Of a DNA stretch of 20,035 bases, positions 1-17,877 are shown piece after piece (positions within the stretch are counted from its first letter, which is position 1; the number at the start of each line of letters is the position of its first letter). Below the pieces are notes generated by a model. The model made no database searches, had not been told where the DNA came from, and worked only from the letters and a program-made list of their open reading frames with translations. The stretch spans positions 1 through 20,035 of the IMG/VR virus record IMGVR_UViG_3300002488_000127; one strand, given 5' to 3'. Source of the DNA: a virus. The position numbers and the translations under genes are program-made.

Positions 1-3000
1 GACCACCACGGAATGTGTAGTGTTCTACCCGGTGTAGAATCATCAAACATACCTACATGATATGCGTGCGTAGAGCGTGTAAATGCTGGACTTTGATTCC
101 CTTGCACTCCCAATGGATTGTATGTCATTAAAGGTGGTGTGTTGGTAAACTGCCCACCGTGGTCAGGGTCATGGTCAAGAATGATTTCGTTGATGAATAC
201 TTCACAACCACGTACATCTGCAAGAGTAGCCTCAGCAAGAACTAGAGTTACGCCACCAATAGCAGAACCGCGCTCACTGTCATACTTGATACCTACAACA
301 AGATTGACTTGTTGACTGGTTAATTCTACTGCGGAACCATTTGGTAAACTGGTTGCTGAACTGTGGTTTGCATGGAATCCAGCAATCTGTTGTTTACGTA
401 CATTTGGTTGTATTACAATCTGATATGCGCCAACTTCCGCAGGGTCTGGGAAGTGATTATCCAACGTATAATTTCCTGCTGCTTCAAGTATGATTGAGTG
501 ACCACCTGTTTTATTCATATCACCAGCAGTACCCTTGGATGCAAGAATACCGTAACCGTCGTATTTTACCTTAGTCTCAAACATTAGAGTAAACGCACCA
601 CCATGAATGTCACTGGGACCAGATGGGGTAGGAGTGAGAGAACTAATTCTAAGTGGTGGGTTTAGTGGATGTAATTTATCTGTAATGCTAGTAGCAAGAC
701 TTGTGGTGTTTATGCCTATGTTGTCTTGGAGAGTGATAAAGTCTTCATCTGCTCTAGTGACAGTTTGTTGACTTCTAGTTCGATCGTATAGTCCTTGGTA
801 CGACGGATGTGCCCAATGACCGGGTAACATAGGCATAGTAGCGTTAACAAAGTGGTGGCCCATTCTTGGGTATGGTATGGGTGTAAGTTGTGGCTTACTG
901 TATCGTGTATGAAGCAGAGTGTCTTGGTCCCCATCGAAGTATAATGTATGTGCCATGTCTGGACTGTTACCACTAACCTCGGCATGGTCACGTAGTCGTC
1001 GAGCAGCAAAGAATCGAGTGCTACCCGCAGGTACATAGTACGATGGTGAAATGTTGATTGTGCTTGTTGCTGGTGGATTATCGAGTAAAAACTGGTCAAA
1101 GTCAATATCACCAACTACACCCGTAAAAGTCGCACCGCTGATGGCTGTGTACGAAACAACTACCGCGTCAGTAGCGGTAGCAAGACGTAGGAAGCGACGA
1201 TTATCACTCTTTTCTTTAGTACCAAAGTCAGCGTCAAACACAGTGCTTGTTACAGTGGCGGACGCAGTAAGTGTAGTACCAGAGAAACTACTTACAGTAA
1301 GTGATTGATTTACCACACCACTAGCATGATTGTAAATTACAGGGTAACGCTCAGTATGACTATGCCCCATCTTAGTTACATGGAAAAACAAAGTACGATC
1401 GTGCAACTCATAAGACGACTGTATTGGATTGTCCTCAGTTGCATCTTTCCATCCATCTCTCTTACTGTCAGGGAAAGCAGAGTCCTCTGAGATATGCTCC
1501 CAACCAACTTCACCCATTGTAGGACCAAAGCGCGGTCCCTTGATTGCGTTGTCAAACAAGTGTCCTATGTGAGATGCCCCAAGGTCAGGATGTAACATAC
1601 CACCATCACCCATTGTCTCATTCTGATAGGCTTGTAGTCTATCGAATCCTGAACGTACAATGATGTTACCGGGTATAGCATTAGGGTCTGGGAGTCTAAT
1701 TTTTAGATTTGGCTCTACACCACTATTGGCGTTTGCTGGTTGTAGACCACTTGCAAGACGTTCACCTGCTGTTTGGAATGCACGAATGATAACACCAAAT
1801 GGAGACCCACCCTCAATCTTATGTGTTTGACCTGTATCATCTACAACATTCATTGCTTCAAACTGTAACTCTTCATTTGGTATCTCCAATATGTTACGCA
1901 GTTCGTGTGGGTGTCTAGCAGCCAACTGTGGGTGCGAAAGTTCCTGTGCTTGAAGAATCGGCATCATAGCGCTATTGGTTGTCTCGAATGAGAATCGTAC
2001 ATTACCGTACAATTTCTCTCCCATGGTATACTCAGTATTACTCTTTACACGATTAATCCAAGGTACTGCCCCAAGCCCACGAGCATTGACTGCTGGTAGA
2101 GATAAACTACCTCCGTCCATGCGCTTCCAAACAACATGCTCTGTATTGAAATTCTTTGCAGGAGCACGTTTGTACATTTCATATCCATTTATGTCACCTA
2201 CCCAGAATGATTTTCCAATAGCAGTATTTGCAAAGAATGCTGATGGTCTATTGGTTGGGTTAGCATAGAAATCAGAACTTATATTTCTTTGAGCACTAGC
2301 ACTTGCTGAGAAATGAGAACCTATACTCTTGTCAAGGTCATAGAATAAATCACCAGTTTCTGCTCGACATGGTGTAGCATTCTCAAGATAATTATCTCCA
2401 ATGACCTCATCATGCAAGAAGAACTCAGCATCAAAGGGTGCAGCGTCCAAACCATTTGTTGCTGTGATGTTGCTTATTGTAGGTAATGATGTAGTGCTTG
2501 CAATCAAAGCCTCGACGTTTGGCCCAGCATTAGCAGTACATACAAACCGATCTTGACCATGGAATCTCTCATCCCATCTTGTTGTACCAGCCTTGACTTT
2601 GTTACCCTGTTGCTCTGCAAGCAACCAGTCACCAGTACATGTAATACCATCTCTATCATACTTAGCCACTAGAGGTAACTCAGATTCGTAGGCTATAACA
2701 AGAAGTGCTCGACCATAAGTTCCTTGAGGGTGATGCATTTCATTTACAATTTCGTCATTGTCATAGAACACTGGAGTGCTGTTATAATCCGATGTATCTG
2801 CATAACCAACTTTGTAACCCTGATACCCAGAACTGTCCTGTCGTTCAGCACTCATATCGCCTAAGAATTCATAGGGCGCATCTGGATTAAAAGTTGGGAA
2901 ATTTACAAGACCTGTGGAAGAGTCAGGTCTTATGGACTCACCACTGTTTGGCATAGGAGCAAGATGAGGTAAGTGACCAAGAGTTGTAGCACACCCCATA

Positions 3001-6000
3001 CTACCTCCGTATGGAGAAAAACCGAGTGAGGGATGCCACGCTCCAAGTCCAGCAGCGTAGGATGAACCAGCCAGTAGGCTGTTAAGATACGAGTATCGCT
3101 CCCCTGCCCAACCAACGACACCAGTTGGTCTTGTTCTATCAATAGCATCAACTAGACCGTTGAAATGCACATTTGTCATATGGTCACGAGAAGAAGTATT
3201 TTCATTGTTATAAGAGAACGTACCCGCTTTTGTCCATACATAAATTGTGTCATTTGCAGCAACAGTTGGGATGTTAATGTTCCCAGCAGCGACCGTTCCC
3301 CCTGCTTCTATGTCATGCCAAGTTTCTGCATTTTCAAAGGCTTTATTTCCGGTAAGATAATTGTACCCAATGTAGAATCTAATAAAATGGTTGCCACTTA
3401 CATCTGTGTAAACAACACGAGTGTGATATGGAGCATAAGCAGGTGCAGCATTTTCTTTACTACTCGCTACAGTTATTTTGTGTTGAGTTCCAGTTCTTAA
3501 CCAACCTGACGCAGGAACCTTTTCACCTAGTGCTATACTCGCTACAGAAACATCAAGATAAGAATATCTACTTTGTTGAGTTGCATCATCAGCAGTGGTA
3601 TCAACTGCACTACCTGCTTCGCTAGTGCCATCGTTTCGATAGTTTGTTACTGTAAACTCCTTCCAACCATAACGATCTTGTCTCATGGCATTACTCATGC
3701 TTGGCATAAATGTACCACCCATCGCTTTGAGTGCGCCAGCACCGGGGAACGTGTTTACGGCTGCACCAATTACAGTAGCGAGTTCCTCACCATTTTGACA
3801 ACGAGTCCCATCAACCACAATATATTCCATATCTATATCACCAGTATCAGGTGTATGTACTTGGAACGCACCACTGCTACCAAACAAAACACGTCTTGCT
3901 AATACACCAGCAACACGGAAGGCAGTAGGATGAACAGAGCAATTACTTGCTGCTACCTTAGCAACCAATGTGTTTCCATCTGGATGTGCTGGGTTCATTG
4001 ATATTTGATTGTCCATCCATGAACCACCGGGGTGATACCCACCATCCATGTGCCAAGCCCAATCAGAATTAGCAACCATACCACCTCCCATGAATACTCC
4101 ATGACGTGTTGGATGTAGCACTTTGAAATCAACCATATTTGAAGCAGCAGGGGTAGGACCTTCTGGGTTTACCATGTCACCATACATTCTACCCTGCTCT
4201 GGTCGATTATACAACACACCAATATTCGGCTTACCAATTGCTGGCTCCCAATTGAGAGTTTGACGCCAATGGAAACGACCACGATCTGTTTGATATGTAC
4301 TTGTCATCGGCATGAAATGGCCTTGGTCATTCTCAATGTGATTTGGGAATGTTTGATTTAACGTGAAAGTCAAAGTTTGATTGGTGTTTGTTGCTGTGGT
4401 ATCTTCACTGACTCTAAAGAGCGTAGAACTATCTATCTGTGTAACAATTGAATTATCAGCAATACCTGTCCCTGTAACAGTCATACCTACTTTTACATTA
4501 GTAGTATTGTCCATTTGTATGATTTTTGGATTGCCTCCAAACGATGAACCACTACCCGCTGTGTTATTTGTATCGCAAGTAGCATCAGTAATTGCAGTCT
4601 TCCCATATGGGACAGCGGACCAAGAGCCACCAGCAGTTATCGCTTTACCGGGATGTGGCTCCTTAGCATTATGTGAAGCGCTACTATCTGCAACCTCTTG
4701 TGTAAATGGGAATGCTTGACCCGGACCATAGATGAGATAAGTTGTTTTATTCTCAGTACCAGCAACTGCATCACCGTATCGCGCTGTTGGGTGTGCAAAA
4801 CGAAGAAGGAATGGAGATGGGACTTGAATGCTTACACCTGCTGTATAAACAGCGGAGTTAGGATGGGCAGCATTTACTGTCTGAGTGCCACGTTTAAGAT
4901 CTGGTGAGAGCATATTGTCTTGATTAAATGCTGGAGGATTAGTTGCACCACGATGTTGATTGACTAATGGTGTACCGGGAAAGAAAGCCATAATCGCATT
5001 GCAGTCAATCATAGCATGAGAGGACAACACTTCGTTAGCGTGTTGGATACCTGCACAACCTGTTGGTCCATTCGCATATGGGTGTGTGTTGAATGACGAG
5101 TAGTCAGTATCAGTGCCATCATTTACGTCCAAGACAACACCACTAAATCCACCACCAAAGAACAATGGAACCCAATGGTCTGTGCTGTCACGCGCACCAC
5201 GGAAGAAAACCTGTGGTACAGAGTTTACACTACCAAGCGCTCGCTTACCTGTAACCCCAAATCGACTAAGACCATGTAGAGTCACTCTTCCTCGCCCTTC
5301 GTCATCCTCACTTACTTTTACTCTAGTTGCTCTTGAAGAGCCTAAGTCATATCTCTGCATTACAGCATTTGCCGAAGGATCGCTTCCGGGCCAATTACTG
5401 TCAACTGTAATTAAGTCAAATCGAGTTTGTGAGTTACTACTAGCATTAGCACCAGTTACAAGACCAGTTGCACCTCTATAATGAATTGGAGATATACTTC
5501 CAAAAGATGCAACCTTGTCTTTAGAAGACACACTGGTTCCCTCTTCTCCAGCAGGGTGTGAGAAGTACCACATCTCACCAACTGCTAAATTCATTGTTGT
5601 TGAACCTGCTACATCAGCAGCAGTGATGATAACGGTAGGATTGCTAATGTTCGGTAAAATGTGGTCCCCACTGTCTGCTGTATAACTTTCTCCAATCAAA
5701 TTCTTTTTCCAATCGGACGCATCAACTGGATTGTTTCTACTATCTACAAGAATAGGAGACAGGGTGTTCGCATTGGAACCTTTACCTTTGGTGCGTACTT
5801 GCATTAGTGTACGAGGTATGTATCCACATGGATTACGTAATCCAGCATCTATTTTAGCATCAGTGGCTGCTCTGCTTGTTCCGGGTAATGTAATCCCGTC
5901 TGCTTTTACGGCAACAGATGCAATCTCTCCGTATTCAACATGCGCTGCTTGAATACCCAAATCTTTGTGCAATGTCGCTTCAAAGAAATTTGACAATGGT

Positions 6001-9000
6001 TGAATATCTCGATTCGGATCGTACGCTCTAATTCTTATTGCATCATGTCTTACACCCCACTCACCGAACGTGCGCCCATCAGCAGCATACATATTCGTAC
6101 AATCAAATGTTACACCGTCTTCACTGTTTACTTCACTCATGTTAATGACACTTGTAGTCACAGCAGCCATGAGTTCGTCAGTTACAAGACTCGTCCAATT
6201 TGCTGCTGGTGAAATAAGTGCTCTTATCTCACCGTTTGCACCGTCACCAAAAATATGAGTAACAGTTGTAACACCAGCCGACCCATCTGTTTTATGGGAG
6301 GCAGTGAAATTATTCCCCTCCACACCATAAAAGACATGTGTACCACTTCCAGTGTCACGAGTTCGAGACGTATACGAATACATATGCCCTTGAGAGCCTT
6401 TCATCGTAGAATCATTGAATGGGTCTGAGAGTTGGAGAACTCCGTCCTTTAGAGGAAAGCCCATGTAACCAAGCATATCATGATGAGGGCATGAATTGTA
6501 CGGCGCTTGTGGTTGTATAGTCAATGTCTTTGCTGATGCATCATAAGTTACTTCACAATCGTATGCGGCATTTGGAGCAGGTACTCCACGCCAACGATTA
6601 CCTCTCCAAGGAACGTGTGTGGCGTTAGAATCAGATGCATCAAAACGACCAGTGGCATCACCTGAACCATGCATGTGGCGACCTATTGTGAAACCACCAT
6701 CACCTACATCTCTATCATCAAAATAGACCATTACTTCTTCATTAATTGTGTTTGGAAGTTGCGTTTTTTCTAGTGCGAACTTTTCACCAAATCGACGATA
6801 AAGGAATCGAATACCATGGCCTACACCACGATGGTCTACAAAACGGAATCCATAAAGATCGGAGTTCCCGATGTTATCTATTTTGACATTACTGGCTGGT
6901 ACATGAACGCCATATGTGGTGGGTGCTTGGGGTGTAAATGTTAGAGTTACTGTACCATTAGCAGTAGCAACAATATCAAGTTGGAAAGTTGTAGAATTTG
7001 TAATCGATGCTACCTTTGCACCAGAGGGTATACCAGTCCCACTAACCCCCATACCTACAACAAGAGCATGTGATGTTGATACGTTAGAAAAAGTCACTTG
7101 AGTTGAATTTGCGGTAACACCACATGACGCTACTGTAACAGCATTATCAGTTACTGTAACATCACCATAGTACTTCGGGAATCTTTTGTCTCCTTTACGC
7201 CCAAAGCCCCATGGTCCAGCGTCAGGTGCAAAACCCGGTATACCTGATGCTACAAGCCCACCAAAGTTCACTCGTCCTGTTGCAGATGTACCAGTTCTTA
7301 ATCCACTAACAAGAGATGTAACAAAACCCTCAGCCTCCAAAGACTCAGTGTTCACTGTATTATGTGATTGACCTGAGCCAACAACCATGCTCATTGCGCG
7401 ATTTACTGGGTCAGATGACTCATCATCTCGGTCAGTAAAGTCAGATGTTGACTTGATACGCTGCCCTGCTTCATCAGGTAATGTGTATTGTTTGAGAGTA
7501 GTGATTGGGGCAAAGGGTCTCCCATCTTTATTCAATGGCATAGGGGCAGGGTGCATGTTCTCCCCACTCATTTCATCAGGCATACACCAGAATGTACGAT
7601 AACGACCACCGTGACCAATGAGGAATTCAGGTTCATACGCGGTTTGACCACGACTGTTATCTAACCATACACAGAAATTACGTCCAGTAGCACCGGGTAT
7701 AGTGCTGTGAATAATTATACTGTAACCCTCTCGTCCCCGTGAATCTTGCACTACACGACCAAGATGAGCGCGTACATATCCCATGTGAGTTCCCTTGTCA
7801 TGACTTTCAAATGAGTCATCGCCCCACCAAGGTGCTGGATTAAATGTAGAACCAGTAAGAGAAAAGTCAGCAACATTTTGGTTAATTGTATCGAGTGTAA
7901 ACTCAGATGTAATAGATCGTTCCAAAGTCCCTGACCAAGTTGGGTCAGTTGCAACATATCTTTCTTTAGGACGGCGAGCATGTGTTCTTCCATTTGGAGC
8001 AGCACCTTGATTGATAAGTCGCACTACCTCACGCGCCGCAGCCTCTACGTCTGTAACACCGTCACGTACTCCCACTTCACCAAGGTCAACTGAAAGACGG
8101 CGAGTAAACGCCATATCAGTCCATTGTTTGAGATGTTGTAATCTGGACTCTGAGTGATTGGTTAAATCAAGAGACGATGAACGTATACCTTTGAGTGCAA
8201 GGTATGCAGGTATTACGCGAGTGCCATCAGGAGTATCGAATAATGTTGAAGGATCGCGAATAGATGCTGACGACGTTCCAGCCCGATGTTCCCTGAGAGC
8301 AACAGTTAGATTATGCTCTGCACTTCTTGACTTACGAGTGTAAGAATGCTTAGTATCTGCCACATAAGATGATGCAACTCCCTCTTCTGTTCTTGGAAGA
8401 ATACTATCTCCCATTGTATTTTCTCCAAATCCAAGACCAGTGTAATATCCAGTGTGAACGAAATGCCCGTGGGCTTTACCGTATAACGTGGTATAGTTAC
8501 CAGTAGATGCATATGTTTGTGGAGAAATGTATGTAGGGGCAGAACCACCCACTGGATTAAGAAGTGAGGATGCTACTCTATTTGCTACATCATGTGCATA
8601 AGCGCTTTCCATAAATCGAGAGCGCACAGCAGTGCGAACCCATTTATTTTCAGATGGGAAACCAGCAGCGACATCGATTTGTGTGATGTAAGGGTGTTGA
8701 CTTCCTCCATTGAATGTAGTACCATAAGTTGACAAATCTGCATTTGCAACATATCGTTGCCAACCAATTTCAGCATGTTTAGCACTGCTTTGAACTTGCA
8801 TATGTAAATCTTGAAATGCTACAAATTCTCGATCGTGAGCAACATCAAACAACAAAACTCTAGCATGACTATCACTTGCTAGATAAGGGTCAAGATACGC
8901 CACTGTAGGAGGATTACTTAGCCCTAAATTTGTATAATTTAACTCAACAGTTTTATTGACGTGTTGAACATAGTTCACTGCTGTTTCATAACAAGAATCA

Positions 9001-12000
9001 CCAATGAGAAAGTTCTCCAACGGTATACTATCTCTTGGTGAAACGGCTAAAGCACCCTCCCCTCCATTAAATAGATTGCAAACAAATGCCTCATTTAAGA
9101 CTCCACGACTTTTAGCAAACAATCCCTCAGTTGCATGTGGGTTATTGTACGTCATGTTCGCCCAAATAGTATCACCATTTCGTAACCCACCTTGTGCGTA
9201 AGGATGCAACCAAGATCGATTTAAGATAGCATCTTGGTCAGTGGACATAACAGAATTTATCCCAACGCGTAAACGCATGGTCACTCCAGCACCGTTAATT
9301 GCTTGTAAGTCACCATCTACGTCTGTATTTATTCCGGGTATGCTAGTCATATCACCAACAATAATTGTTGAATATGAAGTACCTTCAATAATACTTTCAC
9401 CGATATTAGAAATAATTCCTAGATATATTGGTGCTCCCGCTGCTAATGGACCTACTGCTGAAGCAGGTTCAGCGTATATCATATCACCAACTTTTGCTGA
9501 AAATCCTAGAGTATTATGTTGCAGACATTTAGATGATGTGGTTAGACCGGATGGTGGTGTGGCTTGTAATGTAGTTGAGTTAACATATTCAAGAATCCAA
9601 GAATCAGAATTACCCGGACGATATGAGTGAGTAATATTGAGATTATTTCTCGCTTGTATATCTTCTAATGCAGAAACACCACCCAAAGAACCATGTGAAA
9701 AATTCATCAACTTCACAGAGCCACCAACAGCATAAGATGTATGTGATGATGTTAAGAAGTTAGGAAGCGTTGGTCTCGACGATAATGTTTCTAACACAAT
9801 AGTTGAATTTGCTATCTTCGATGTTGCAACGGACCCAGATCCAGACAAAACTAAGGTATGAGCAAAAGTGGCCGATGTACGCCCCCAGTATATGCAACTT
9901 TCAGTCGAGCCATTAGGTAAAGTAATGTCTGCCCTGTAATGCTTGTCTCCAGTTTCAAATTGTATATTGCCACTTCCATCCACATTTGCAGTAATTTCAG
10001 GGAATAATAAAGCATCTTCATCACTAAGAGATACAGTAAATACACCGCTAAAATTAGTCCCGTTAAATAAAGGTGTGACAGCGTTTACTCTACCAATAGC
10101 ACGTTTAGATTTGACGCGAGCAGCGTGTGGATTTGTTGTAGGCCCAGCCTTGAATTCTACAGCACTGACGTATTGACGGAGTCCATAGTCTACGTTACCG
10201 CCTTGTGTTTTGGTGCTTGCTTGGTCGTAGTAGTACTCACTTCTCCCCTCAAAGTCTGATGATGTTGTTTCATCATCTGAAAAGATAGGTATCACTCTTT
10301 CAGACTCGTAACCATCAGAAACAAGAAGTTGCATACCAACCTCATGAGTTGCCAAAAAACCCTCAGAATAAGCCCAATCATGGTCTGCAAATTCTATATA
10401 ACCATCAGATGCTGGGTCGTTTTGATATAGAATCCACTCACCATTTGGTAAGAAAGCCTGACGATACACCACTACATTGTCTACATTGTAAAAAGACGAT
10501 GCACTGGTTGAAGCAGCAGGGAAGGCATCAGGATCTCTAACGTATAATTGATACGTAGAACCTACATCTTTTGCTCTTAGCATAATGGATGAACTCTTTG
10601 AAAACTCATCACGCTCAATTGCATACGCGTACGCTGCTCGTGCAGCGCGGTCAGCAGGAGCCTTCTCAGGATATCGTCTACCGACTGGACTTGGATTCCA
10701 AGTATGAGCAGTCATGGTTGCGTCAACGTGTAATTTCAAAGAGTTATCAGGACCGGGGAATATACCTTCGGATGCATTCTCAAAGAACTGCCCACCAAAT
10801 AGTGGGATTTCTACAAGAGCACGAGTTGATGCATACTGAGTACCTAATTGATAATCGTGAGTTACATCATCCATAGATTGGAACATTCTATCGTTTACTG
10901 TGGACCCATCGGCAGCAGCGTTTTCTATGTAGAAGTGACCATCACCAAGAATAACTTCACCCAATGAAAATGTCTCATTGTCTGTTCCTGTTACACCACT
11001 TGCTTCGGGAAGAAGACCAGAGGCGATACACCAAGATTTCAAAGTACCAAGGTCTTGACCATCAGCAAGTGTGAATTTACCATCACCAACAGTGCCGTCT
11101 GTAAAGAAAAAGGCAACACCATTCTTGGAAGCATACTCAGCACTCGCTCCATTCTTCAAAAACAATCGACCTTTCTTTGGGAAAGGATACGTACCCCATG
11201 ATTCTAAATCTGGAGTGTTGTTATTCAACGGACGAACTTCGATGTACTGGATGGGTGTACTACCATGTAAGTCGATACGTGCAGACTGAGCGACTACCGA
11301 GAATCCTCTTCTAGTGGTATAAGGCAGACGTGAAAGGGGACTAGGATCGAATGATGGTTTGGTGTCAAATGCACCTTGGCCCGGTCCACCTAGAGTTACT
11401 GTAACAACGGGAGCGTTAGGGTCCAACTCTTTAATGATGTGGGAGTCAGGACTACCTGAGCCTATCTCACTAGCAGTTGCAGTGTTGGCAAGAGAAGTAG
11501 TTCCTTGTATGCGGAAGTTGGTAAAACGAACACCGTCTTCTGCCTCAGTTTCAGATACACTTCTCAAAATACCTTTACTCATCATGTAATATATACCAGC
11601 AGAATTTGCTTCCTTGGACCTTTCGCGAGTGCCTATGAGATGCCTTAGTTGCATTGTACGGTTTCTATCGGAAGGTTGTATGTAGAGGATATAAGGGTCG
11701 GATTCCAATTGTATATGATTGTCAATAATATCAAACACTTCATGAATTGGAGATGCAGAGCGGGATACACCAATATCAAATTGTCCATCGCTAGGTGAAT
11801 CAATATCTGTAAAAACAGATCGCACACCAGTTGTTGCTATATTTTCTTTAGTAAATTTACTTCCTTCAATAACCAGTCGATTAAAAACAGACTCATGTGC
11901 TGTAGAATTTGTATGAGATGCTGTAACAATTTGTGGTGTTTTACGAGGCTCATCAGACATTGTTGTGTAATTTTGGGGTGTATACTTTTCATCTAACTCA

Positions 12001-14408
12001 TCATCAGCCTCGTACCCTTCACTTACATCACCAATCATCATGTGGGGTGATTGTAAAGTGTGGAGATTACCTTCTTCTAATCTCATCGTTACTACGCCAC
12101 CCGGAGAGAAAATAGTAGTATCAACCGCTGCATTTACCAAATCAGCAGCAATAATATCAGCAATATATGCAGGAGTGAAAGTAAGTGTCCCATTAGTTAC
12201 TGACCCACCAGTAGTAGCAGCACTCAACTCAAATGTAGTGCTATTTGTTATGCTAACAACAAACGCACCTGCTGGTATACCTGTGCCTGAAACACGCATA
12301 CCAACTCGAACATTTGTAGTAGCATCCATTGTTACAGTAGGGTCATTGTTATAGTCGCAAGTCGCATCAGTAAACGAACTACCTGCTGTTTGAAAAGAGC
12401 CAGCAGGTAGTGTTTTTTCTACCATAAGCATTGATACTGTTTTACCCATACTTACACCAGTTACGTCTACTGCGTTATAATGAACTTCAACCATTGGGGC
12501 AAAGTTATGAGTCGATAAAGACGGTACTGAAAGCATCGCTATTCTACTTGTACGAGAGGGACGGAGATGATGAGTTCTCTCAGTCTCATCTACACTAGAA
12601 ACTGAACGTGGCACTGGTCCCTTAAGGAAAAAAGGATACGGGTTAAATCTTTTTTGTGTAAAATTAGTTTTAGTCCCACTACCACCAATGGCTATAATTT
12701 CACGACTGGCCCCACTAAGTCCGTTGTCAACAATTTCAAAGGCCATTGATGAATCTTGTACAGATGCAATTTCCATACTCGCTATTTGGCGGTAATAATC
12801 AACTTCTGAATTAATTGGCATCTGACTTTCTATACCCTTAGTTGAATCATCATAAATAATTTCTACAATGTCAGCAGTGCCTATTTGTTGGTCTACAATT
12901 TCTTCATTTGCTTTAGGAAGCATACGTAGATAGTGATGACCATTGATATGATTATTGATATGACGACCAGAGTGGCCTACTTGGAATGATTCATCTACAG
13001 AGGTAGGCCAAGTAACTGCGAATGGATTATCTGAATCGCTAGTTGTTGTAGCCATACGTGAAGAGTAAGTTATTCCATGTTGTTCAAACGGCCCTTCATC
13101 AAGTATCATTTGTCCAGTGCGATCGATAAGTTGAGTGGCAAGATGAGGTGGTTGATAAGGACGACCTGAGCCATTTTCAATCAATAAATCAGCAGCGACC
13201 ACGACGAAATAATCATCACCAGTAGCGGCACTTCTTGAATGAAGAACAGGTCGTAATCCATCACCAGTAGCACTTGTAACAAAGTCAAGATGTATACTAC
13301 TTACAAGCATTACACCAGTGCTCACGTTGATGTTGTGTAGACGAACACGTTCAGGTGGAGATTGATTTGGTTTCTTGGTTTTACGATTGATTGCACCGGG
13401 ATTAATGAGAAGATTGTAAGGTACGTGAGGTATGCTTCTTGTTGTTGCAGATGCCCCTGCACCTGTGACATTGTCAAATACACTATAATTACCCGAAGAA
13501 TAAGGTGATGTTGTAAAATCAATTGTACCAGTTGTTACCGTATTACCAGTAAGAGCAGTGGCTAAAGTCGCGGCATTAGCAGTTGAGATGGTAATCGTAG
13601 ATAAATTCGAGGCAGATCCAATAGAAGAAATATCATACTCTCCCGCTATGGGATTAATAGGCTCTTCAAATCTGTATAGAAGAGCAGTAGAATCTTGTAC
13701 CAAAGGAGGATTTGCTGATAACATTTCACTTTCAAAACTATTGGATATGTGAAGGCTTTCAATTACACCACGGAATTGACCACCCTTACCTCCAACGTAA
13801 ACATGATTATTAGATTGATTTATTGTAGTACCAAATGGTATTTTTTGTTGAGCCATAATTAATCCATTAACATAAAGACGTATGTAACCTGATTCTACAG
13901 CACCAACAACATGATACAGTGGACGGTGACTTAAGTTAAGAGCAGTGCCATCATCTTTGTTACTGTCAAATCGGTTATACGAATCAGTAATTGCATTATA
14001 ATCAGGGGTAGGGTACACAGTACCACTGTACCCCGCGCTAGTCAACGAAGCAGTAGTTACATGAAATTCTCCAAGTCCACTTGGTGAGTCAAGAGCAACC
14101 GAAAATATTGCAGGGCCGGGGGTGTCTACGGTTCCTATTTGAAGTTTGAATTGGTCATCTTTTGATACAATTACTCCACCACAGTCAGGTGTAACCCAAG
14201 CCTCTACTACTATTGTGTTACGTAAAATATCACCTACGACACTTGGACCACGCTCACCATCCGCTGAGTCACCGATAATATCACCAGCACTTCGATTACC
14301 ACTTGCATCATCATTTCCAACCTTACTATGAAGACCTTGAGGGATAATAACAGAATCAGTTACCCCGTCAAAGAGTAAAGCATGATTTGTCTTGAGTAGT
14401 GCTGGCAT
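1..14408 (-). CDS. Giant virion structural protein (probable tail tip/fibre), 3' end outside window
   Basis: A single reading frame runs from an ATG at 14408 to base 1 without a stop, at least 4,802 codons. I translated it throughout and checked the phase at 10334, 8414, 4175, 830 and base 5. The start follows GAGGT with a 6-base spacer. Residues about 8-250 look like a LamG/concanavalin A-like domain: it opens ALLFDGVTDSVIIP, then has IVVEAWVTP, IRLYVNGLIMAQQ, HVYVGGKGG and LLYRFEEP. Residues about 677-747, 2413-2497 and 3269-3352 carry a repeated beta module (VGMxVSGTGIP...ITNSTTFxL). KRA(I/L)GxVN segments occur near 1432 and 3052. A segment with ELATVIGAAVN lies near 3510-3558. The rest is beta-type sequence rich in Gly, Asn, Thr, Ser, His and aromatics, with no signal peptide, membrane segment or catalytic motif that I recognise. 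Its place directly after the tape measure and hub genes suggests a tail tip, fibre or adhesion component; the function is inferred. The single frame is very secure, the role moderately so. Confidence 0.88.
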   Translation of the reverse strand, partial: MPALLKTNHALLFDGVTDSVIIPQGLHSKVGNDDASGNRSAGDIIGDSADGERGPSVVGDILRNTIVVEAWVTPDCGGVIVSKDDQFKLQIGTVDTPGPAIFSVALDSPSGLGEFHVTTASLTSAGYSGTVYPTPDYNAITDSYNRFDSNKDDGTALNLSHRPLYHVVGAVESGYIRLYVNGLIMAQQKIPFGTTINQSNNHVYVGGKGGQFRGVIESLHISNSFESEMLSANPPLVQDSTALLYRFEEPINPIAGEYDISSIGSASNLSTITISTANAATLATALTGNTVTTGTIDFTTSPYSSGNYSVFDNVTGAGASATTRSIPHVPYNLLINPGAINRKTKKPNQSPPERVRLHNINVSTGVMLVSSIHLDFVTSATGDGLRPVLHSRSAATGDDYFVVVAADLLIENGSGRPYQPPHLATQLIDRTGQMILDEGPFEQHGITYSSRMATTTSDSDNPFAVTWPTSVDESFQVGHSGRHINNHINGHHYLRMLPKANEEIVDQQIGTADIVEIIYDDSTKGIESQMPINSEVDYYRQIASMEIASVQDSSMAFEIVDNGLSGASREIIAIGGSGTKTNFTQKRFNPYPFFLKGPVPRSVSSVDETERTHHLRPSRTSRIAMLSVPSLSTHNFAPMVEVHYNAVDVTGVSMGKTVSMLMVEKTLPAGSFQTAGSSFTDATCDYNNDPTVTMDATTNVRVGMRVSGTGIPAGAFVVSITNSTTFELSAATTGGSVTNGTLTFTPAYIADIIAADLVNAAVDTTIFSPGGVVTMRLEEGNLHTLQSPHMMIGDVSEGYEADDELDEKYTPQNYTTMSDEPRKTPQIVTASHTNSTAHESVFNRLVIEGSKFTKENIATTGVRSVFTDIDSPSDGQFDIGVSRSASPIHEVFDIIDNHIQLESDPYILYIQPSDRNRTMQLRHLIGTRERSKEANSAGIYYMMSKGILRSVSETEAEDGVRFTNFRIQGTTSLANTATASEIGSGSPDSHIIKELDPNAPVVTVTLGGPGQGAFDTKPSFDPSPLSRLPYTTRRGFSVVAQSARIDLHGSTPIQYIEVRPLNNNTPDLESWGTYPFPKKGRLFLKNGASAEYASKNGVAFFFTDGTVGDGKFTLADGQDLGTLKSWCIASGLLPEASGVTGTDNETFSLGEVILGDGHFYIENAAADGSTVNDRMFQSMDDVTHDYQLGTQYASTRALVEIPLFGGQFFENASEGIFPGPDNSLKLHVDATMTAHTWNPSPVGRRYPEKAPADRAARAAYAYAIERDEFSKSSSIMLRAKDVGSTYQLYVRDPDAFPAASTSASSFYNVDNVVVYRQAFLPNGEWILYQNDPASDGYIEFADHDWAYSEGFLATHEVGMQLLVSDGYESERVIPIFSDDETTSSDFEGRSEYYYDQASTKTQGGNVDYGLRQYVSAVEFKAGPTTNPHAARVKSKRAIGRVNAVTPLFNGTNFSGVFTVSLSDEDALLFPEITANVDGSGNIQFETGDKHYRADITLPNGSTESCIYWGRTSATFAHTLVLSGSGSVATSKIANSTIVLETLSSRPTLPNFLTSSHTSYAVGGSVKLMNFSHGSLGGVSALEDIQARNNLNITHSYRPGNSDSWILEYVNSTTLQATPPSGLTTSSKCLQHNTLGFSAKVGDMIYAEPASAVGPLAAGAPIYLGIISNIGESIIEGTSYSTIIVGDMTSIPGINTDVDGDLQAINGAGVTMRLRVGINSVMSTDQDAILNRSWLHPYAQGGLRNGDTIWANMTYNNPHATEGLFAKSRGVLNEAFVCNLFNGGEGALAVSPRDSIPLENFLIGDSCYETAVNYVQHVNKTVELNYTNLGLSNPPTVAYLDPYLASDSHARVLLFDVAHDREFVAFQDLHMQVQSSAKHAEIGWQRYVANADLSTYGTTFNGGSQHPYITQIDVAAGFPSENKWVRTAVRSRFMESAYAHDVANRVASSLLNPVGGSAPTYISPQTYASTGNYTTLYGKAHGHFVHTGYYTGLGFGENTMGDSILPRTEEGVASSYVADTKHSYTRKSRSAEHNLTVALREHRAGTSSASIRDPSTLFDTPDGTRVIPAYLALKGIRSSSLDLTNHSESRLQHLKQWTDMAFTRRLSVDLGEVGVRDGVTDVEAAAREVVRLINQGAAPNGRTHARRPKERYVATDPTWSGTLERSITSEFTLDTINQNVADFSLTGSTFNPAPWWGDDSFESHDKGTHMGYVRAHLGRVVQDSRGREGYSIIIHSTIPGATGRNFCVWLDNSRGQTAYEPEFLIGHGGRYRTFWCMPDEMSGENMHPAPMPLNKDGRPFAPITTLKQYTLPDEAGQRIKSTSDFTDRDDESSDPVNRAMSMVVGSGQSHNTVNTESLEAEGFVTSLVSGLRTGTSATGRVNFGGLVASGIPGFAPDAGPWGFGRKGDKRFPKYYGDVTVTDNAVTVASCGVTANSTQVTFSNVSTSHALVVGMGVSGTGIPSGAKVASITNSTTFQLDIVATANGTVTLTFTPQAPTTYGVHVPASNVKIDNIGNSDLYGFRFVDHRGVGHGIRFLYRRFGEKFALEKTQLPNTINEEVMVYFDDRDVGDGGFTIGRHMHGSGDATGRFDASDSNATHVPWRGNRWRGVPAPNAAYDCEVTYDASAKTLTIQPQAPYNSCPHHDMLGYMGFPLKDGVLQLSDPFNDSTMKGSQGHMYSYTSRTRDTGSGTHVFYGVEGNNFTASHKTDGSAGVTTVTHIFGDGANGEIRALISPAANWTSLVTDELMAAVTTSVINMSEVNSEDGVTFDCTNMYAADGRTFGEWGVRHDAIRIRAYDPNRDIQPLSNFFEATLHKDLGIQAAHVEYGEIASVAVKADGITLPGTSRAATDAKIDAGLRNPCGYIPRTLMQVRTKGKGSNANTLSPILVDSRNNPVDASDWKKNLIGESYTADSGDHILPNISNPTVIITAADVAGSTTMNLAVGEMWYFSHPAGEEGTSVSSKDKVASFGSISPIHYRGATGLVTGANASSNSQTRFDLITVDSNWPGSDPSANAVMQRYDLGSSRATRVKVSEDDEGRGRVTLHGLSRFGVTGKRALGSVNSVPQVFFRGARDSTDHWVPLFFGGGFSGVVLDVNDGTDTDYSSFNTHPYANGPTGCAGIQHANEVLSSHAMIDCNAIMAFFPGTPLVNQHRGATNPPAFNQDNMLSPDLKRGTQTVNAAHPNSAVYTAGVSIQVPSPFLLRFAHPTARYGDAVAGTENKTTYLIYGPGQAFPFTQEVADSSASHNAKEPHPGKAITAGGSWSAVPYGKTAITDATCDTNNTAGSGSSFGGNPKIIQMDNTTNVKVGMTVTGTGIADNSIVTQIDSSTLFRVSEDTTATNTNQTLTFTLNQTFPNHIENDQGHFMPMTSTYQTDRGRFHWRQTLNWEPAIGKPNIGVLYNRPEQGRMYGDMVNPEGPTPAASNMVDFKVLHPTRHGVFMGGGMVANSDWAWHMDGGYHPGGSWMDNQISMNPAHPDGNTLVAKVAASNCSVHPTAFRVAGVLARRVLFGSSGAFQVHTPDTGDIDMEYIVVDGTRCQNGEELATVIGAAVNTFPGAGALKAMGGTFMPSMSNAMRQDRYGWKEFTVTNYRNDGTSEAGSAVDTTADDATQQSRYSYLDVSVASIALGEKVPASGWLRTGTQHKITVASSKENAAPAYAPYHTRVVYTDVSGNHFIRFYIGYNYLTGNKAFENAETWHDIEAGGTVAAGNINIPTVAANDTIYVWTKAGTFSYNNENTSSRDHMTNVHFNGLVDAIDRTRPTGVVGWAGERYSYLNSLLAGSSYAAGLGAWHPSLGFSPYGGSMGCATTLGHLPHLAPMPNSGESIRPDSSTGLVNFPTFNPDAPYEFLGDMSAERQDSSGYQGYKVGYADTSDYNSTPVFYDNDEIVNEMHHPQGTYGRALLVIAYESELPLVAKYDRDGITCTGDWLLAEQQGNKVKAGTTRWDERFHGQDRFVCTANAGPNVEALIASTTSLPTISNITATNGLDAAPFDAEFFLHDEVIGDNYLENATPCRAETGDLFYDLDKSIGSHFSASASAQRNISSDFYANPTNRPSAFFANTAIGKSFWVGDINGYEMYKRAPAKNFNTEHVVWKRMDGGSLSLPAVNARGLGAVPWINRVKSNTEYTMGEKLYGNVRFSFETTNSAMMPILQAQELSHPQLAARHPHELRNILEIPNEELQFEAMNVVDDTGQTHKIEGGSPFGVIIRAFQTAGERLASGLQPANANSGVEPNLKIRLPDPNAIPGNIIVRSGFDRLQAYQNETMGDGGMLHPDLGASHIGHLFDNAIKGPRFGPTMGEVGWEHISEDSAFPDSKRDGWKDATEDNPIQSSYELHDRTLFFHVTKMGHSHTERYPVIYNHASGVVNQSLTVSSFSGTTLTASATVTSTVFDADFGTKEKSDNRRFLRLATATDAVVVSYTAISGATFTGVVGDIDFDQFLLDNPPATSTINISPSYYVPAGSTRFFAARRLRDHAEVSGNSPDMAHTLYFDGDQDTLLHTRYSKPQLTPIPYPRMGHHFVNATMPMLPGHWAHPSYQGLYDRTRSQQTVTRADEDFITLQDNIGINTTSLATSITDKLHPLNPPLRISSLTPTPSGPSDIHGGAFTLMFETKVKYDGYGILASKGTAGDMNKTGGHSIILEAAGNYTLDNHFPDPAEVGAYQIVIQPNVRKQQIAGFHANHSSATSLPNGSAVELTSQQVNLVVGIKYDSERGSAIGGVTLVLAEATLADVRGCEVFINEIILDHDPDHGGQFTNTPPLMTYNPLGVQGNQSPAFTRSTHAYHVGMFDDSTPGRTLHIPWW
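3735..3880 (-). other. Tail-type segment with ELATVIGAAVN in the giant protein
   Basis: Residues about 3510-3558 read SGAFQVHTPDTGDIDMEYIV, then VDGTRCQNGEELATVIGAAVN. The pattern 'beta strand, xDGTxxxxxxELAxxIxxAVN' is common in phage tail and adhesin proteins. A more complete example appears in the neighbouring 425-residue hub-like protein (residues about 112-240). It is reported as a local pattern only; domain limits are uncertain. Confidence 0.35.
4351..4605 (-). repeat. Beta module copy C in the giant protein (VGMTVTGTGIA)
   Basis: This copy begins ITDATCDTNNTAGSGSS, has NVKVGMTVTGTGIADNSIV, then TQIDSSTLFRVSEDTTATN, and ends QTLTFTLN. Its DATCD lead-in matches copy A at both protein and codon level (ACTGATGCxACTTGCGA). 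It differs in the core, where IADNS replaces IPAGA. It is the most diverged of the three copies inside the giant protein. Confidence 0.7.
6918..7170 (-). repeat. Beta module copy B in the giant protein (VGMGVSGTGIP)
   Basis: This copy begins around VTVTDNAVTVASCGVTA and contains LVVGMGVSGTGIPSGAKVAS followed directly by ITNSTTFQLDIVATANGTV and LTFTPQAP. It shares VSGTGIP and ITNSTTF with copy A word for word and has the same trailing LTFTP strand. The lead-in is different from that of copies A and C. Confidence 0.75.
12167..12381 (-). repeat. Beta module copy A in the giant protein (VGMRVSGTGIP)
   Basis: About 71 residues start FTDATCDYNNDPTVTMDA, continue with VRVGMRVSGTGIPAGAFVVS and ITNSTTFELSAATTGG, and end in GTLTFTPA. 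The pattern (VGM-V-GTGIP, six or seven residues, then a strand with TTFxLS) recurs at two other places in this protein and at the N terminus of the tail tube protein. It looks like a small domain inserted into a larger one, because the flanking sequence reads as one continuous beta-rich region. Confidence 0.75.
13660..14387 (-). other. LamG/concanavalin A-like domain at N terminus of the giant protein
   Basis: Residues about 8-250 of the giant protein show the layout of a Laminin_G_3-type jelly roll. It begins with a strand like LLFDGVTDSVIIP, followed by TIVVEAWVTP and the KDDQFKLQIG strand. Then come HVVGAVESGYIRLYVNGLI (the usual 'vdGxxxxxxx' hairpin), NNHVYVGGKGGQFRGVIESLHIS and finally LLYRFEEP. 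Such domains in viral tail proteins usually bind carbohydrate or serve as fibre scaffold. No ligand can be deduced here. Confidence 0.7.
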
Positions 14409-14414
14409 TTCAAG

Positions 14415-14419
14415 ACCTC
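14415..14419 (-). promoter_or_regulatory. Shine-Dalgarno site of the giant gene
   Basis: GAGGT sits 6 bases before the ATG at 14408 and overlaps the TGA stop of the upstream gene (14420-14418). This supports ATG 14408 as the start and suggests coupling to translation of the gene before it. Confidence 0.75.
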
Positions 14420-15695
14420 AGAATATCATATCAATCGGTAGGAATGTGAGTGTAAAACGATAAACGGCCTCACCAGCGTCATAACCGATTTCTAAATTCT
14501 TTACAGTGCCTTGAATTCCAGTATAATTATCCGTTGTACTAAATTCAACATCAGCGGACAAATCATTAGCGTCTGAGCCTTTTTCACCTTTTCTTTTATA
14601 ACCAGTGGGTACAAAGAAATTACGAGCAGTATACAATTGACCATCGGGCGCTTGAATCATAGAATTGTATGGAATTTGAAGTCCTATAGGATAATCACCA
14701 CTTCTTTGCGCTGGATCTAAAATTTCACTAGGATCGCTACCAGTCGAACCAAAAGCGGAAGCGGTAGCACCTGCCATTCTCATGAGCACAGGTAGTCCTA
14801 AAGAGGCGACAGTGCTTAATTTAGCAGAGCCACCACGGATAGTATTATGCAGAATACCATATAAGTCCTGTACTTTATCTCCAGCGGATTTTCTATTAGA
14901 ACCAGTAGACGTTACGGGGTCTGAACCAAAAGACGTAGTTTTAGACTCAGCGGCAAACGATGTATTTTCAAAATTACGTACAACACCATCAGCGGCGTAT
15001 GCACCAGCAGTAACAGCAGTAAAAACAACTTTTTCATTATTACCTGCTGTTCTACTTGTGTTGGAAGAATCAGCAAGAGTAGTAGTAAATTTAGTGGTTA
15101 AAGCAACACTACTTATTGATTGATTCGCCATTAGATGTTGAATAGATGCAGCGACCTGAGCATTTGTTGCATAACCACCAGCGCCATTTCCACCTCGAAT
15201 TAACCAAGATGTTCCAGAACTACCACCGACTTGAAGATATGCATTATTACTCGCACCAAAAGCCACTCCACCTCCAGTACCGTTTGTGGCAAAATCATCT
15301 ATCACTAGGAAAATAACGAGGGCATCATCCTTGTCTCTAAGTTCATATATAGTAGCGGGAGCAAGACCAGTGTTACCAGTCATAGTTTGCACATCTGGTA
15401 CTGTTTGCCCAAAGGTGTTATTATTTTGAATTCCAAAATCAATTTCACCTACACCCGCTGTTCCGGGGATTGCTGCTGCTGAAACGGTATCATCAACGAA
15501 CACTCCATCAATAACAATAACAGAGTTGGACATGTTCAAATCCATACCAAATCTCCTACCACCACTAAAAGGAACAGGGCTACCGCCTGTCTTACGTTCA
15601 ACACTCATACCAATACGAGTGGCATCAAGACGGATTGCTGTCTTCTCATCATCGTCAAGAATAAGACGTATAGGAGTTGCATAACCACTAGACAT
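14418..15695 (-). CDS. Probable distal tail/hub (baseplate) protein, 425 residues
   Basis: I recognise this protein by position and style rather than by a diagnostic motif. It lies between the tape measure gene and the giant tail protein, where distal tail or hub proteins are usually encoded. The N-terminal part has IRLILDDDEKTAIRLDATRI and FGMDLNMSNSVIVIDGVFVD. The C terminus, GIQGTVKNLEIGYDAGEAVY then RFTLTFLPIDMIF, has the alternating strand pattern seen at the ends of tail hub and adaptor proteins, which read 'G.v.s......g...Y.f.l.F'. Residues about 112-240 look like an inserted beta module: ATIYELRDKDD, FLVIDDFATNGTGGG, ATNAQVAASIQHLMA, VVFTAVTAGAYAADG. The start has a strong GGGAGGTT site 6 bases upstream. 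The TGA stop is 9 bases from the next start. No enzymatic motif or membrane segment is seen. The tail assignment is likely; the exact subunit is uncertain. Confidence 0.8.
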   Translation of the reverse strand: MSSGYATPIRLILDDDEKTAIRLDATRIGMSVERKTGGSPVPFSGGRRFGMDLNMSNSVIVIDGVFVDDTVSAAAIPGTAGVGEIDFGIQNNNTFGQTVPDVQTMTGNTGLAPATIYELRDKDDALVIFLVIDDFATNGTGGGVAFGASNNAYLQVGGSSGTSWLIRGGNGAGGYATNAQVAASIQHLMANQSISSVALTTKFTTTLADSSNTSRTAGNNEKVVFTAVTAGAYAADGVVRNFENTSFAAESKTTSFGSDPVTSTGSNRKSAGDKVQDLYGILHNTIRGGSAKLSTVASLGLPVLMRMAGATASAFGSTGSDPSEILDPAQRSGDYPIGLQIPYNSMIQAPDGQLYTARNFFVPTGYKRKGEKGSDANDLSADVEFSTTDNYTGIQGTVKNLEIGYDAGEAVYRFTLTFLPIDMIF

Positions 15696-15697
15696 GA

Positions 15698-16741
15698 TTA
15701 GAACCTCCCAGTCATGGTGCTTCCACCCAATTTTCTCGATACTTCTTGTTGAATCATATTTCCAATCTGACGGGCAAGTTCTCGTTTGTCTGTGCGATCG
15801 GTGATGCCATTAAGATTCATTGCAATATTTACAGCAGTGCCAGCACCGCCTTCCGATGCTTTTTCGACAGCCCCAACAACTGCCTGACCCGGTGCTGCTA
15901 TTGTGCCTACAATTTTATCATGGGCTTTATCGATTTTGTGTACTATTGGTTTTATGTATTGAACATACAATTCTCTAACTCGATTTACAAATGCTTCAAA
16001 ATTTTCTTTTGCACCATCAAAGAAATTTGATAAGGATGTTTTTATTGGATTCATAAAATTATTGAAAACAGTCTTTATTCTTTCAACGAGAACATCCCAA
16101 TCTTCTTTTATCCCAGTAAATCTATCTCTTACTTTTTGCTTTAATTCATCCCATATAGTTAAAAATCTAGTTCTATAAGTCTCAACCATACTCAGAATTT
16201 TTTCCTTAAAAATTTCTTTTACTTTATCTAATTTATTTGATGCGACTTCTTTTAGTTGCTCCCATATCGGTACAACAACAGCACTCCAAAGATCTTTTAT
16301 TGCTGTCCAAGTGGTTGAAATTCCATTTATCAATCCACCTCCTTCTCCAAAGAAAGCATTCCATATTGTTTTGAATGTATCAACAATTGGAACTACAACA
16401 TTATCCCATGCTGATTTTACAAAGCCCCAAGCCCCTTCGGCAGTAATTTTTAACTGTTCCCATATCGGAACAACAATATTATTCCATGCGTCAGTTATAC
16501 CTTGCCATGCATTAGTTGCAACTTCTTTGATTGTGTTCCATATTGGGATTAAATTCTCATCTATGAAAGCCTTGAGTTGTTCATATTTTTCTTTGATTGT
16601 TTCGTATATAGAAATAAAAGCCTCTTTTACAACAGTCATTGAACTACTAAATACAGAGCCAAGAGAACTAAACGTAGAGGACACTCCTTGAGAGATAGTG
16701 CTTAGAGTGCTAATGCTGTTAGCAAGTTGTGCAACACCCAT
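15698..16741 (-). CDS. Tape measure protein, short form (347 residues)
   Basis: This protein would set tail length and be threaded inside the tube. It is long-helical with regularly spaced tryptophans: PIWNTIKE, PIWEQLKI, PIVDTFKT and PIWEQLKE with prolines at residues 66, 92, 118 and 158, so a 26-residue repeat with one 40-residue interval. The C terminus (about 303-340) reads AVNIAMNLNGITDRTDKREL then ARQIGNMIQQEVSRKLGG, which is typical of tape measure C-termini. There is no clear membrane segment and no peptidase or lysozyme domain. At 347 residues it is short for the family (often 600-2,000). At the usual roughly 1.5 angstrom per residue it predicts a tail of about 50 nm. The ATG overlaps the stop of the frameshifted chaperone (TAATG) and is preceded by GGGAGGA at 6 bases. 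Confidence 0.88.
   Translation of the reverse strand: MGVAQLANSISTLSTISQGVSSTFSSLGSVFSSSMTVVKEAFISIYETIKEKYEQLKAFIDENLIPIWNTIKEVATNAWQGITDAWNNIVVPIWEQLKITAEGAWGFVKSAWDNVVVPIVDTFKTIWNAFFGEGGGLINGISTTWTAIKDLWSAVVVPIWEQLKEVASNKLDKVKEIFKEKILSMVETYRTRFLTIWDELKQKVRDRFTGIKEDWDVLVERIKTVFNNFMNPIKTSLSNFFDGAKENFEAFVNRVRELYVQYIKPIVHKIDKAHDKIVGTIAAPGQAVVGAVEKASEGGAGTAVNIAMNLNGITDRTDKRELARQIGNMIQQEVSRKLGGSTMTGRF
15702..15709 (-). promoter_or_regulatory. Shine-Dalgarno site of the hub-like gene
   Basis: GGGAGGTT lies 6 bases before the ATG at 15695, inside the last codons of the tape measure gene. The tape measure stop TAA (15700-15698) falls within the spacer. This fixes the start and implies coupled translation. 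Confidence 0.8.
16262..16484 (-). repeat. Near-identical DNA repeat encoding PIW segments of the tape measure
   Basis: Plus-strand text CCCATATCGGTACAACAAC near 16262 and CCCATATCGGAACAACAAT near 16460 differ at only two positions. Both encode VVPIWEQ of the 26-residue tape measure repeat. The similarity at DNA level points to fairly recent duplication or recombination between repeats. Confidence 0.6.
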
Positions 16742-17040
16742 TAGAAGTCCTCCCTGTCTAAGAACGAGTAGTCAACCTTCACTGTCTCGCGCCCCCCACT
16801 CTTTGCTTCTTGACGCTGTTGCTTATTCGCTTTTTCCTCTTGACCAATACCAACAAGGGTCCATACAAGCGAGCGACGAAATGTTTCAGGGTGCATATCA
16901 TCCACTTCCTTTAATGAAATTCCAAAATGCTTCGCTATCATATAACTCCACAACTCCAGTTGCATTACGATGTCTTGGGCTGATGTAACAGTCTTTCGAG
17001 ATAGAAAATCTTCTACTTCTCGCTGTCGCCCTTCGTAAAC
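16741..17040 (-). CDS. Frameshift-dependent T-like extension of the tail-assembly chaperone (99 residues)
   Basis: This -1 frame is open from the G7 run at 17046-17040 to a TAA at 16743-16741. After the shift it reads VYEGRQREVEDFLSRKTVTS and continues through MQLELWSYMIAKHFGISLKE to VDYSFLDREDF. An internal ATG at 16965 would give 74 residues, but it lacks a Shine-Dalgarno sequence and would drop 25 plausible coding residues. The reading as an extension of the chaperone is therefore preferred. Joined to the first 115 residues of the upstream gene, the product is 214 residues. In lambda and many other long-tailed phages the equivalent G-T fusion binds both tape measure and tail tube subunits. 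This gene's place immediately before the tape measure, overlapping it as TAATG, agrees with that role. The sequence itself is not one I recognise. Confidence 0.8.
   Translation of the reverse strand, partial: VYEGRQREVEDFLSRKTVTSAQDIVMQLELWSYMIAKHFGISLKEVDDMHPETFRRSLVWTLVGIGQEEKANKQQRQEAKSGGRETVKVDYSFLDREDF
16748..16754 (-). promoter_or_regulatory. Shine-Dalgarno site of the tape measure gene
   Basis: GGGAGGA is placed 6 bases before ATG 16741, inside the final codons of the frameshifted T-like reading frame. It supports this start over later in-frame methionines. Confidence 0.75.
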
Positions 17041-17384
17041 CCCCCCTGCACCGTCTGCGCCAATTCATCAGGGCTAGGAAGGAGGGATGAAATTGCCTCA
17101 CCAACAGCGCCTTTCAAATTAAGAATTTCATCAGTGGTAAGGGAAGGATTGGTTTTTACAACCCAATTGGTAAAAGCAAAACGCCAATACGCTGCAAGAT
17201 TAAGAGATAGATCTCCATTCTGTCCTATATCAAACAACTCTTGTGTTGCGAGTTGAATGTCGAAGAACGAGATGTCACGAATCCACACCTCCATGACCGC
17301 ATCAGGGTCATCAGGGTCAATCTGGATTTCGTGTTTAGTTTCTGTCGTTTGTCTTAATAATTTATTCTTGTCCACTACTGGCAT
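17013..17384 (-). CDS. Tail-assembly chaperone, gpG-like (123 residues)
   Basis: It lies between the tail tube side and the tape measure, where the gpG/gpGT chaperones of long-tailed phages are encoded. The core reads MEVWIRDISFFDIQLATQEL, then LSLNLAAYWRFAFTNWVVKT, SLTTDEILNL and LLPSPDELAQTVQGGF. This is a small helical protein of the size expected for the short chaperone form. The zero-frame product ends GGFTKGDSEK; ribosomes slipping at the G7 run give the long form instead. The start ATG 17384 has GAGGTG at 7 bases and overlaps the end of the SAP-domain gene by 23 bases, implying coupled translation. Assignment rests on position, size and the frameshift rather than on residue identity to a named family. 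Confidence 0.8.
   Translation of the reverse strand: MPVVDKNKLLRQTTETKHEIQIDPDDPDAVMEVWIRDISFFDIQLATQELFDIGQNGDLSLNLAAYWRFAFTNWVVKTNPSLTTDEILNLKGAVGEAISSLLPSPDELAQTVQGGFTKGDSEK
17040..17046 (-). promoter_or_regulatory. Slippery heptamer GGGGGGG for -1 ribosomal frameshift
   Basis: In the chaperone frame the codons are CAG GGG GGG TTT, so the run G GGG GGG fits the X XXY YYZ rule with full re-pairing after a -1 slip. The zero frame stops 24 bases after the run (TAG at 17015-17013), while the -1 frame is open for 99 codons up to the tape measure start. I found no convincing stem-loop by eye just downstream, so stimulation of the shift is unresolved. Confidence 0.82.
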
Positions 17385-17877
17385 TTTCTTCCACCTCGGT
17401 TACAGCCGACTCATCGTCGGGGGCATCCGGCTGTTCGTCAGCAGCCGCATCAGCGGGGGCTTCGGACTCAGCCGTGGTTTCTTCCTCGATATCCTCATCA
17501 TCACGCCGTAAGCGCAAGGCGAGTTCAGCCTTCGTACCGGAGTACGGAAGACCGCGCTGCTTACATTCCTCACGGAGTTCTGCGAGCGTCATTGCATCGT
17601 AGGAAAGGTCACTTGGAAATTCAGAAGTGTTTGGTATCTCATCAGCCGTGACAGGCGTGACAGTCTTTTCTGTCTCGTTTGTCTCAAGGTCATCGGTTTT
17701 TACTTCTGCTTTATATGTGGATTGCAGGGAGAGGACATAATTCTCAATCAAAGCACGAGAACGATGAGAAATGAGAATGTCTCCTTCTATCCCCATACGT
17801 TGTGCAAACCACTCACCGTACCCCTGCGGAGTCTTACGCCTAAAGTGAAAGACACGTTCGCGTGGTGTTGGCATCAT
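17362..17877 (-). CDS. SAP-domain protein in the tail cluster (171 residues)
   Basis: Three parts can be seen. Residues 1-60 are basic to mixed and begin MMPTPRERVFHFRRKTPQGY; they also contain GEWFAQRMGIEGDILISHRS. Residues about 91-127 match the SAP fold (SAF-A/B, Acinus, PIAS): LSYDAMTLAELREECKQRGL then PYSGTKAELALRLRR, with the usual 'LxxLxxxxxxRGLxxxGxKxxLxxRL' spacing. Residues 128-171 are an acidic, Ala/Glu/Asp-rich, probably disordered tail. SAP domains generally bind DNA. Its place between tail tube and chaperone suggests a tail-related or tube-associated role, but no function is established from the sequence. The tandem ATG ATG start (17877 and 17874) follows GAGGTGA, so either could be used. 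The gene ends inside the chaperone gene. Confidence 0.85.
   Translation of the reverse strand: MMPTPRERVFHFRRKTPQGYGEWFAQRMGIEGDILISHRSRALIENYVLSLQSTYKAEVKTDDLETNETEKTVTPVTADEIPNTSEFPSDLSYDAMTLAELREECKQRGLPYSGTKAELALRLRRDDEDIEEETTAESEAPADAAADEQPDAPDDESAVTEVEENASSGQE
17392..17397 (-). promoter_or_regulatory. Shine-Dalgarno site of the chaperone gene
   Basis: GAGGTG precedes ATG 17384 by 7 bases and lies inside the SAP-domain coding sequence, encoding part of its C-terminal acidic tail. It decides the start of the chaperone. Confidence 0.75.

Follow-up and report, generated by a model that had tools for sequence, protein, structure and literature searches.

The closest described systems are the magroviruses and, among Druskaviridae, the virus HVTV-1. 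Magroviruses (order Magrovirales, including the families Aoguangviridae and Apasviridae) are viruses of Poseidoniales, and their genomes of 90-110 kb carry two oppositely transcribed modules, a PolB, a clamp loader, a chaperonin, and an MCP related to that of Druskaviridae (PMC10768690, PMC12999244, PMC5332604). HVTV-1 presents its capsid genes, the major tail protein gp128, a frameshifted chaperone, and the tape measure gp131 in the same order as the viruses described here. The sequence under study (hereafter the window) is an entire linear IMG/VR record of 20,035 bp, in which a single giant reading frame extends from the tail genes to the contig end.

Evidence for the affiliation of this virus came from its relatives. 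A contig that overlaps the window with 100% identity encodes an MCP that is 90% identical to that of the relative G004. The G004 MCP, in turn, displayed 32-34% identity over 99% to the MCPs of HVTV-1, HCTV-1, and HCTV-5 (Druskaviridae, HK97-type). Among the G004 genes that lie outside the window are a PolB (9.8e-37), an AAA clamp-loader-like gene (6e-15), a Cpn60_TCP1 group II chaperonin (2.5e-123), and an SNF2 helicase. In G004 (contig of 105 kb) and G008 (102 kb), the morphogenesis and replication modules are located on opposite strands. Both resemble Magrovirales in their size (90-110 kb) and opposed modules, and G004 also does so in its PolB, clamp-loader ATPase, chaperonin, and Druskaviridae-related MCP. 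Set against the published magrovirus descriptions, the window most likely derives from a marine archaeal tailed virus of the order Magrovirales, and we infer an archaeal host from Poseidoniales. The only host matches in genome collections were MAGs of Maricaulis and Cytophagaceae (L197-L199), to which the pieces of giant-gene viruses were probably mis-binned. No tRNAs were found when these were sought for a host link.

The giant frame and its relatives

Two features mark the giant gene and its start in the window:

3..14408 (-): giant gene of the tail module, represented by its N-terminal 4,802 codons, ATG start, frame cut by the contig end
14415..14419 (-): GAGGT ribosome-binding site, 6 nt 5' of the ATG, sharing bases with the stop codon of the preceding gene

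The frame opens with the ATG at 14408, runs through 4,802 codons without an internal stop, and is still open at the contig end, its 3' end lying outside the record. Across this stretch, the longest other frame has no more than 132 codons, and no tandem repeats were found in the giant frame. Sites similar to GAGGT precede the giant-gene starts in most relatives. The uninterrupted frame with a ribosome-binding site, as described in the original prediction, is thus borne out. Judged against the full length of the gene in relatives, the window holds its N-terminal four fifths. Because the closest relative with the whole gene (77% identical) has 6,126 aa, the full protein of the window is probably about 6,000-6,100 aa long. 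The window ends at residue 4,822 of this relative, and beyond that point the proteins of 20 relatives have 976-1,611 further residues.

The whole gene was recovered from 20 related IMG/VR contigs, in each as a single ORF of 5,166-6,143 aa that ends in a TGA stop, with homology spanning the entire length, C-terminus included. A contig from another metagenome (3300044448_001703) is 100% identical to the window over the first 959 codons, and a second one (3300030116_005293, ~93% identical) has an open frame of 4,848 codons. Queries with the C-terminal 1,000 residues retrieved 73 relatives with identities of 42-93%, and a profile of one conserved-body segment (aa 1724-2310) retrieved 291. In stretches of 800 codons, NG86 dN/dS was mostly 0.03-0.25, with synonymous sites saturated in several stretches of the more distant pairs; the gene is evidently under purifying selection along its length. 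A single frame break was detected in only 2/176 scanned loci (L056 and L166), and these breaks, which occur at different sites, look like indels.

As an independent sampling, 20 long contigs were chosen by their MCP and not by the giant gene. The giant gene was present in 18 of them, that is, in 18/18 of those reaching far enough; the remaining two stop less than about 9.4 kb past the MCP gene, and in G004 the giant gene begins ~9.6 kb past it. Since the profile search and every testable MCP-selected contig agree, the comparisons show that the giant gene belongs to the core gene set of a large lineage of viruses and is not a rarity of a single genome. Viruses of this lineage are abundant in marine metagenomes, and to our knowledge none has been cultured. 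Virion proteins of this size had been regarded as very rare; within this lineage the giant gene is no rarity. The large share of the genome thought to be spent on one gene is confirmed at ~16-17% in relatives of 90-105 kb.

The window by itself is a truncated metagenomic contig, and one might suppose that several genes were fused in it by chimeric joining or missed stops. The probability of such an artefact is negligible, as independent contigs from many metagenomes share both the gene order and the stop-free single frame. A missed frameshift or a chimeric join, the hazards named in the original prediction, are ruled out by the full-length relatives, the purifying selection, and the presence of the gene in all testable relatives.

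Searches of deposited phages by tblastn with three 1,000-aa pieces returned no homologue. Meanwhile, the viral UniProt entry A0A1B1IU10 (a BFVD fragment) aligns with the N-terminus across 1,153 columns at 44% identity (E 2e-88); by this match, the gene family is already deposited. We found no description of a giant magrovirus tail protein in the literature searched, and an earlier description is possible.

Tail-gene neighbourhood

The rest of the window, which precedes the giant gene, encodes the following:

14418..15695 (-): 425-aa tail protein of no confident family, keeping its syntenic position ahead of the giant gene in 4/4 genomes examined
15698..16741 (-): tape measure, 347 aa, matching PHROG tape-measure families (E 1.9e-18) and, by profile, HVTV-1 gp131 (80% probability)
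16741..17384 (-): tail assembly chaperone, 123-aa G-like and 74-aa T-like ORFs with a putative -1 frameshift
17362..17877 (-): SAP-domain tail-module protein, 171 aa (Pfam SAP 5.2e-11)
17887..20007 (-): major tail protein of 706 aa, matching HVTV-1 gp128 by profile (94.7% probability)
19768-20007 (-): copy of a mobile module at the N-terminal end of the major tail protein, detected by module comparison

A putative -1 slip run, GGGGGGGTTTA at 17040-17046 (-), would link the 123-aa ORF with the downstream ORF of 74 aa, and the pair resembles lambda G/GT, which is joined by a -1 frameshift. The relative G001 displays the same G-run context in its chaperone gene. In G001, G004, G008, and G016, the giant gene comes after the major tail protein and a protein of 403-429 aa, with the tape measure and chaperone identified between these in most, and tail-fibre-like genes (PHROG 18345) come after the giant gene. 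The synteny with major tail protein, chaperone, and tape measure agrees with the earlier view that the giant gene belongs to the tail module. The claim that it follows a hub gene found no support, as the upstream 425-aa protein gave no confident match in Pfam or PHROGs.

Further observations were made in the related genomes. Two adjacent genes of G016 (48170-51085, -) encode proteins of 415 and 552 aa that are each similar to the 425-aa protein of the window, which may be duplicated there. A sequence of ~105 aa is 84-87% identical across the otherwise distant G008:60893-61231, G016:32138-32455, and G004:29630-30505 (L087, L090, L079). It adjoins the 3' side of the giant gene in two of these genomes, belongs to the head/packaging module in the other one, and is possibly a mobile element. 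A second large ORF (1,839-1,932 aa) was present in the head module of 4/4 genomes (G004:35848-41367), in a position like that of HVTV-1 gp115.

Domains and conservation of the giant protein

Within the giant frame, the following segments were distinguished:

13659..14213 (-): ConA/LamG-like lectin jelly-roll domain, aa about 66-250 (Pfam Laminin_G_3, AF2, VIA)
12162..12371 (-): mobile module a, ~70 aa (aa 680-749), shared with L097 and missing from the other relatives shown
7479..9239 (-): conserved body segment, aa 1724-2310, source of the profile that retrieved the 291 relatives
6921..7136 (-): mobile module b (aa 2425-2496), which only L097 has as well
4350..4589 (-): mobile module c (aa 3274-3353), missing at the equivalent site of L097
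3..2168 (-): most conserved segment, aa 4081-4802, mean column identity 64%

Pfam Laminin_G_3 matched 17/19 relatives (best E 6.8e-9), with the copy in the window below the curated cutoff. The AF2 model of this domain has a pLDDT mostly of 70-88, and its VIA Z was 14.5 to PAPP-A, 12-13 to pentraxin PTX3, and ~11 to neurexin/laminin LG domains. Foldseek matches to the binding domains of botulinum/clostridial neurotoxins were set aside, as they reflect the common jelly-roll fold and imply no toxin. The predicted lectin fold at the N-terminus supports a role at the surface or in adsorption; the domain could also be structural instead of adhesive.

No recognised fold was obtained outside the lectin domain, where the AF2 models were weak: mean pLDDT was 56 for the N-terminal 1,110 residues and 40 for aa 1724-2420, the latter model being left out of the fold searches. 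Hub homology (baseplate hub/Tal, gp27-like) was likewise not detected, with no PHROG, PDB-sequence, or HVTV-1 baseplate match; with AF2 models as weak as pLDDT 40-56, such a domain may still be present. Three segments of the giant protein and the mobile module had no convincing sequence relatives in the PDB. There was no transmembrane-like segment, the maximum 19-residue hydropathy being 1.4-1.6.

The core of the protein spans ~5,400 alignment columns, and length differences between relatives result largely from inserts, for which core positions ~4477-4950 and ~5225 are hot spots. Between G004 and G008, identity was ~51% for the giant protein, 22-44% for other tail genes, and 74-77% for capsid genes. 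By these alignments, the giant body is more conserved than the tail proteins with which it was compared, and its variation resides mostly in loop inserts. At the C-terminal hot spot, L113 carries an optional insert of 296 aa (aa 4478-4773), beta-propeller-like by eye, and L111 one of 588 aa (aa 5065-5652) that displays several repeats by eye; neither gave a confident match in Pfam or PHROGs.

When the profiles of 51 segments were compared all against all, only a dispersed mobile module recurred, the rest being non-repetitive. This module has 70-80 aa with the pattern TDATCD...VGM.VSGTGIP...TLTF, and it occupies three sites in the giant protein, with a further copy at the N-terminal end of the major tail protein. 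The sequence on either side of the module aligns between relatives and is cleanly interrupted by it, and one subtype is found at different sites in the window and in a close relative; L097 carries a copy of the c type elsewhere, at its aa 1139-1218. Pfam and PHROGs returned no confident match for the module. Mobile modules inserted into loops in this way are a natural experiment in which the gain of surface domains by virion proteins can be followed. A giant adhesin built of repeats (RTX/Ig-array type) was also considered, and it was rejected for want of tandem internal repeats, the dispersed module being the only recurrent element.

Role of the giant protein

Position, synteny, and the module shared with the major tail protein place the product of the giant gene in the tail. 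We consider it probable that this is a structural gene closing the tail module and encoding a tail-tip scaffold/adhesion protein of the virion; we infer the presence in the virion, the tail-tip location, and the scaffold and adhesion roles. The product of ~6,000 aa would form a baseplate-like tail tip as a long non-repetitive chain, in which the conserved core of 5.2-5.4 kaa would act as scaffold or hub beside the tail tube and the tape measure. Contact with the host envelope would be made by the lectin-fold domain at the N-terminus and by the optional surface-loop domains, and the downstream gene with fibre-family matches would be the likelier fast-evolving receptor-binding fibre. More tentatively, one non-repetitive chain of 5.2-6.1 kaa may possibly make up nearly the whole tail tip in this lineage and replace the separate distal-tail, hub, and baseplate proteins, being diversified by small mobile domains that enter its loops.

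Instead of acting as one chain, the protein might be made at full length and afterwards processed by a protease to yield several separate tail-tip proteins, replacing small genes of the HVTV-1 gp132-138 type. HVTV-1 has seven ordinary-size genes after the tape measure, the giant-gene viruses have one giant gene and 3-4 smaller ones up to the oppositely transcribed module, and variable, gap-rich stretches separate the conserved blocks of the giant protein, all of which suits a polyprotein. We nevertheless regard it as unlikely, since the frame is never split into genes in relatives (bar the two indel-like breaks), no part of it matches gp132-138, and the sole protease known in the genome belongs to the prohead protease family. 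A fusion of gp132-138 was rejected, as these proteins have no profile match to the giant protein. The lectin-fold N-terminus, the optional domains at the hot spots of the core, and the location of the gene in the tail module are also what a long, outward-extending fibre or adhesin would display, the protein being mainly a receptor binder. That reading seems rather improbable to us: the giant protein is the better conserved of the tail genes compared, it lacks a repeat architecture except for the mobile module, and a separate downstream gene matches tail-fibre families. Relative conservation thus points to a structural core, for example a scaffold of the tail tip or baseplate, more than to a fast-evolving receptor binder.

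The tail tip or adhesion structure proposed in the original prediction is therefore kept in part. The lectin-fold N-terminus and the place in the tail module favour it, a plain variable adhesin fits poorly with the identities given above, and a conserved scaffold with optional modules appears to fit better. Alternatively, the product might be no virion part, and the gene for a giant protein that is secreted or intracellular (for example, a modifier of the host surface) could lie behind the tail genes by chance. We deem this very improbable, given the constant synteny within the tail module, the mobile module that the giant protein shares with the major tail protein encoded in the window, and the lack of a transmembrane-like segment.

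As a tail-tip scaffold, the giant protein would be a tail-tip protein of exceptional length, and a single gene that takes up about one sixth of the genome, occurs in every testable relative, and exceeds its tail neighbours in conservation suggests an unusual tail-tip design. This gene is a good marker gene and a good target for proteomics.

The comparison with known systems concerns both the N-terminal domain and the gene layout. ConA/LamG-like lectins (Laminin_G_3, pentraxin, neurexin LG, PAPP-A) have the jelly-roll fold in common with aa ~66-250 of the giant protein, but this domain makes up only ~3-4% of it, and a common fold shows no ligand. HVTV-1 encodes a LamG-type protein of 367 aa, gp137, behind its baseplate gene, and Foldseek gave a weak match to this protein too. 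Downstream of the tail genes whose order both share, HVTV-1 has several genes of 150-524 aa, whereas the lineage described here has one gene of 5-6 kaa, with no profile match between them.
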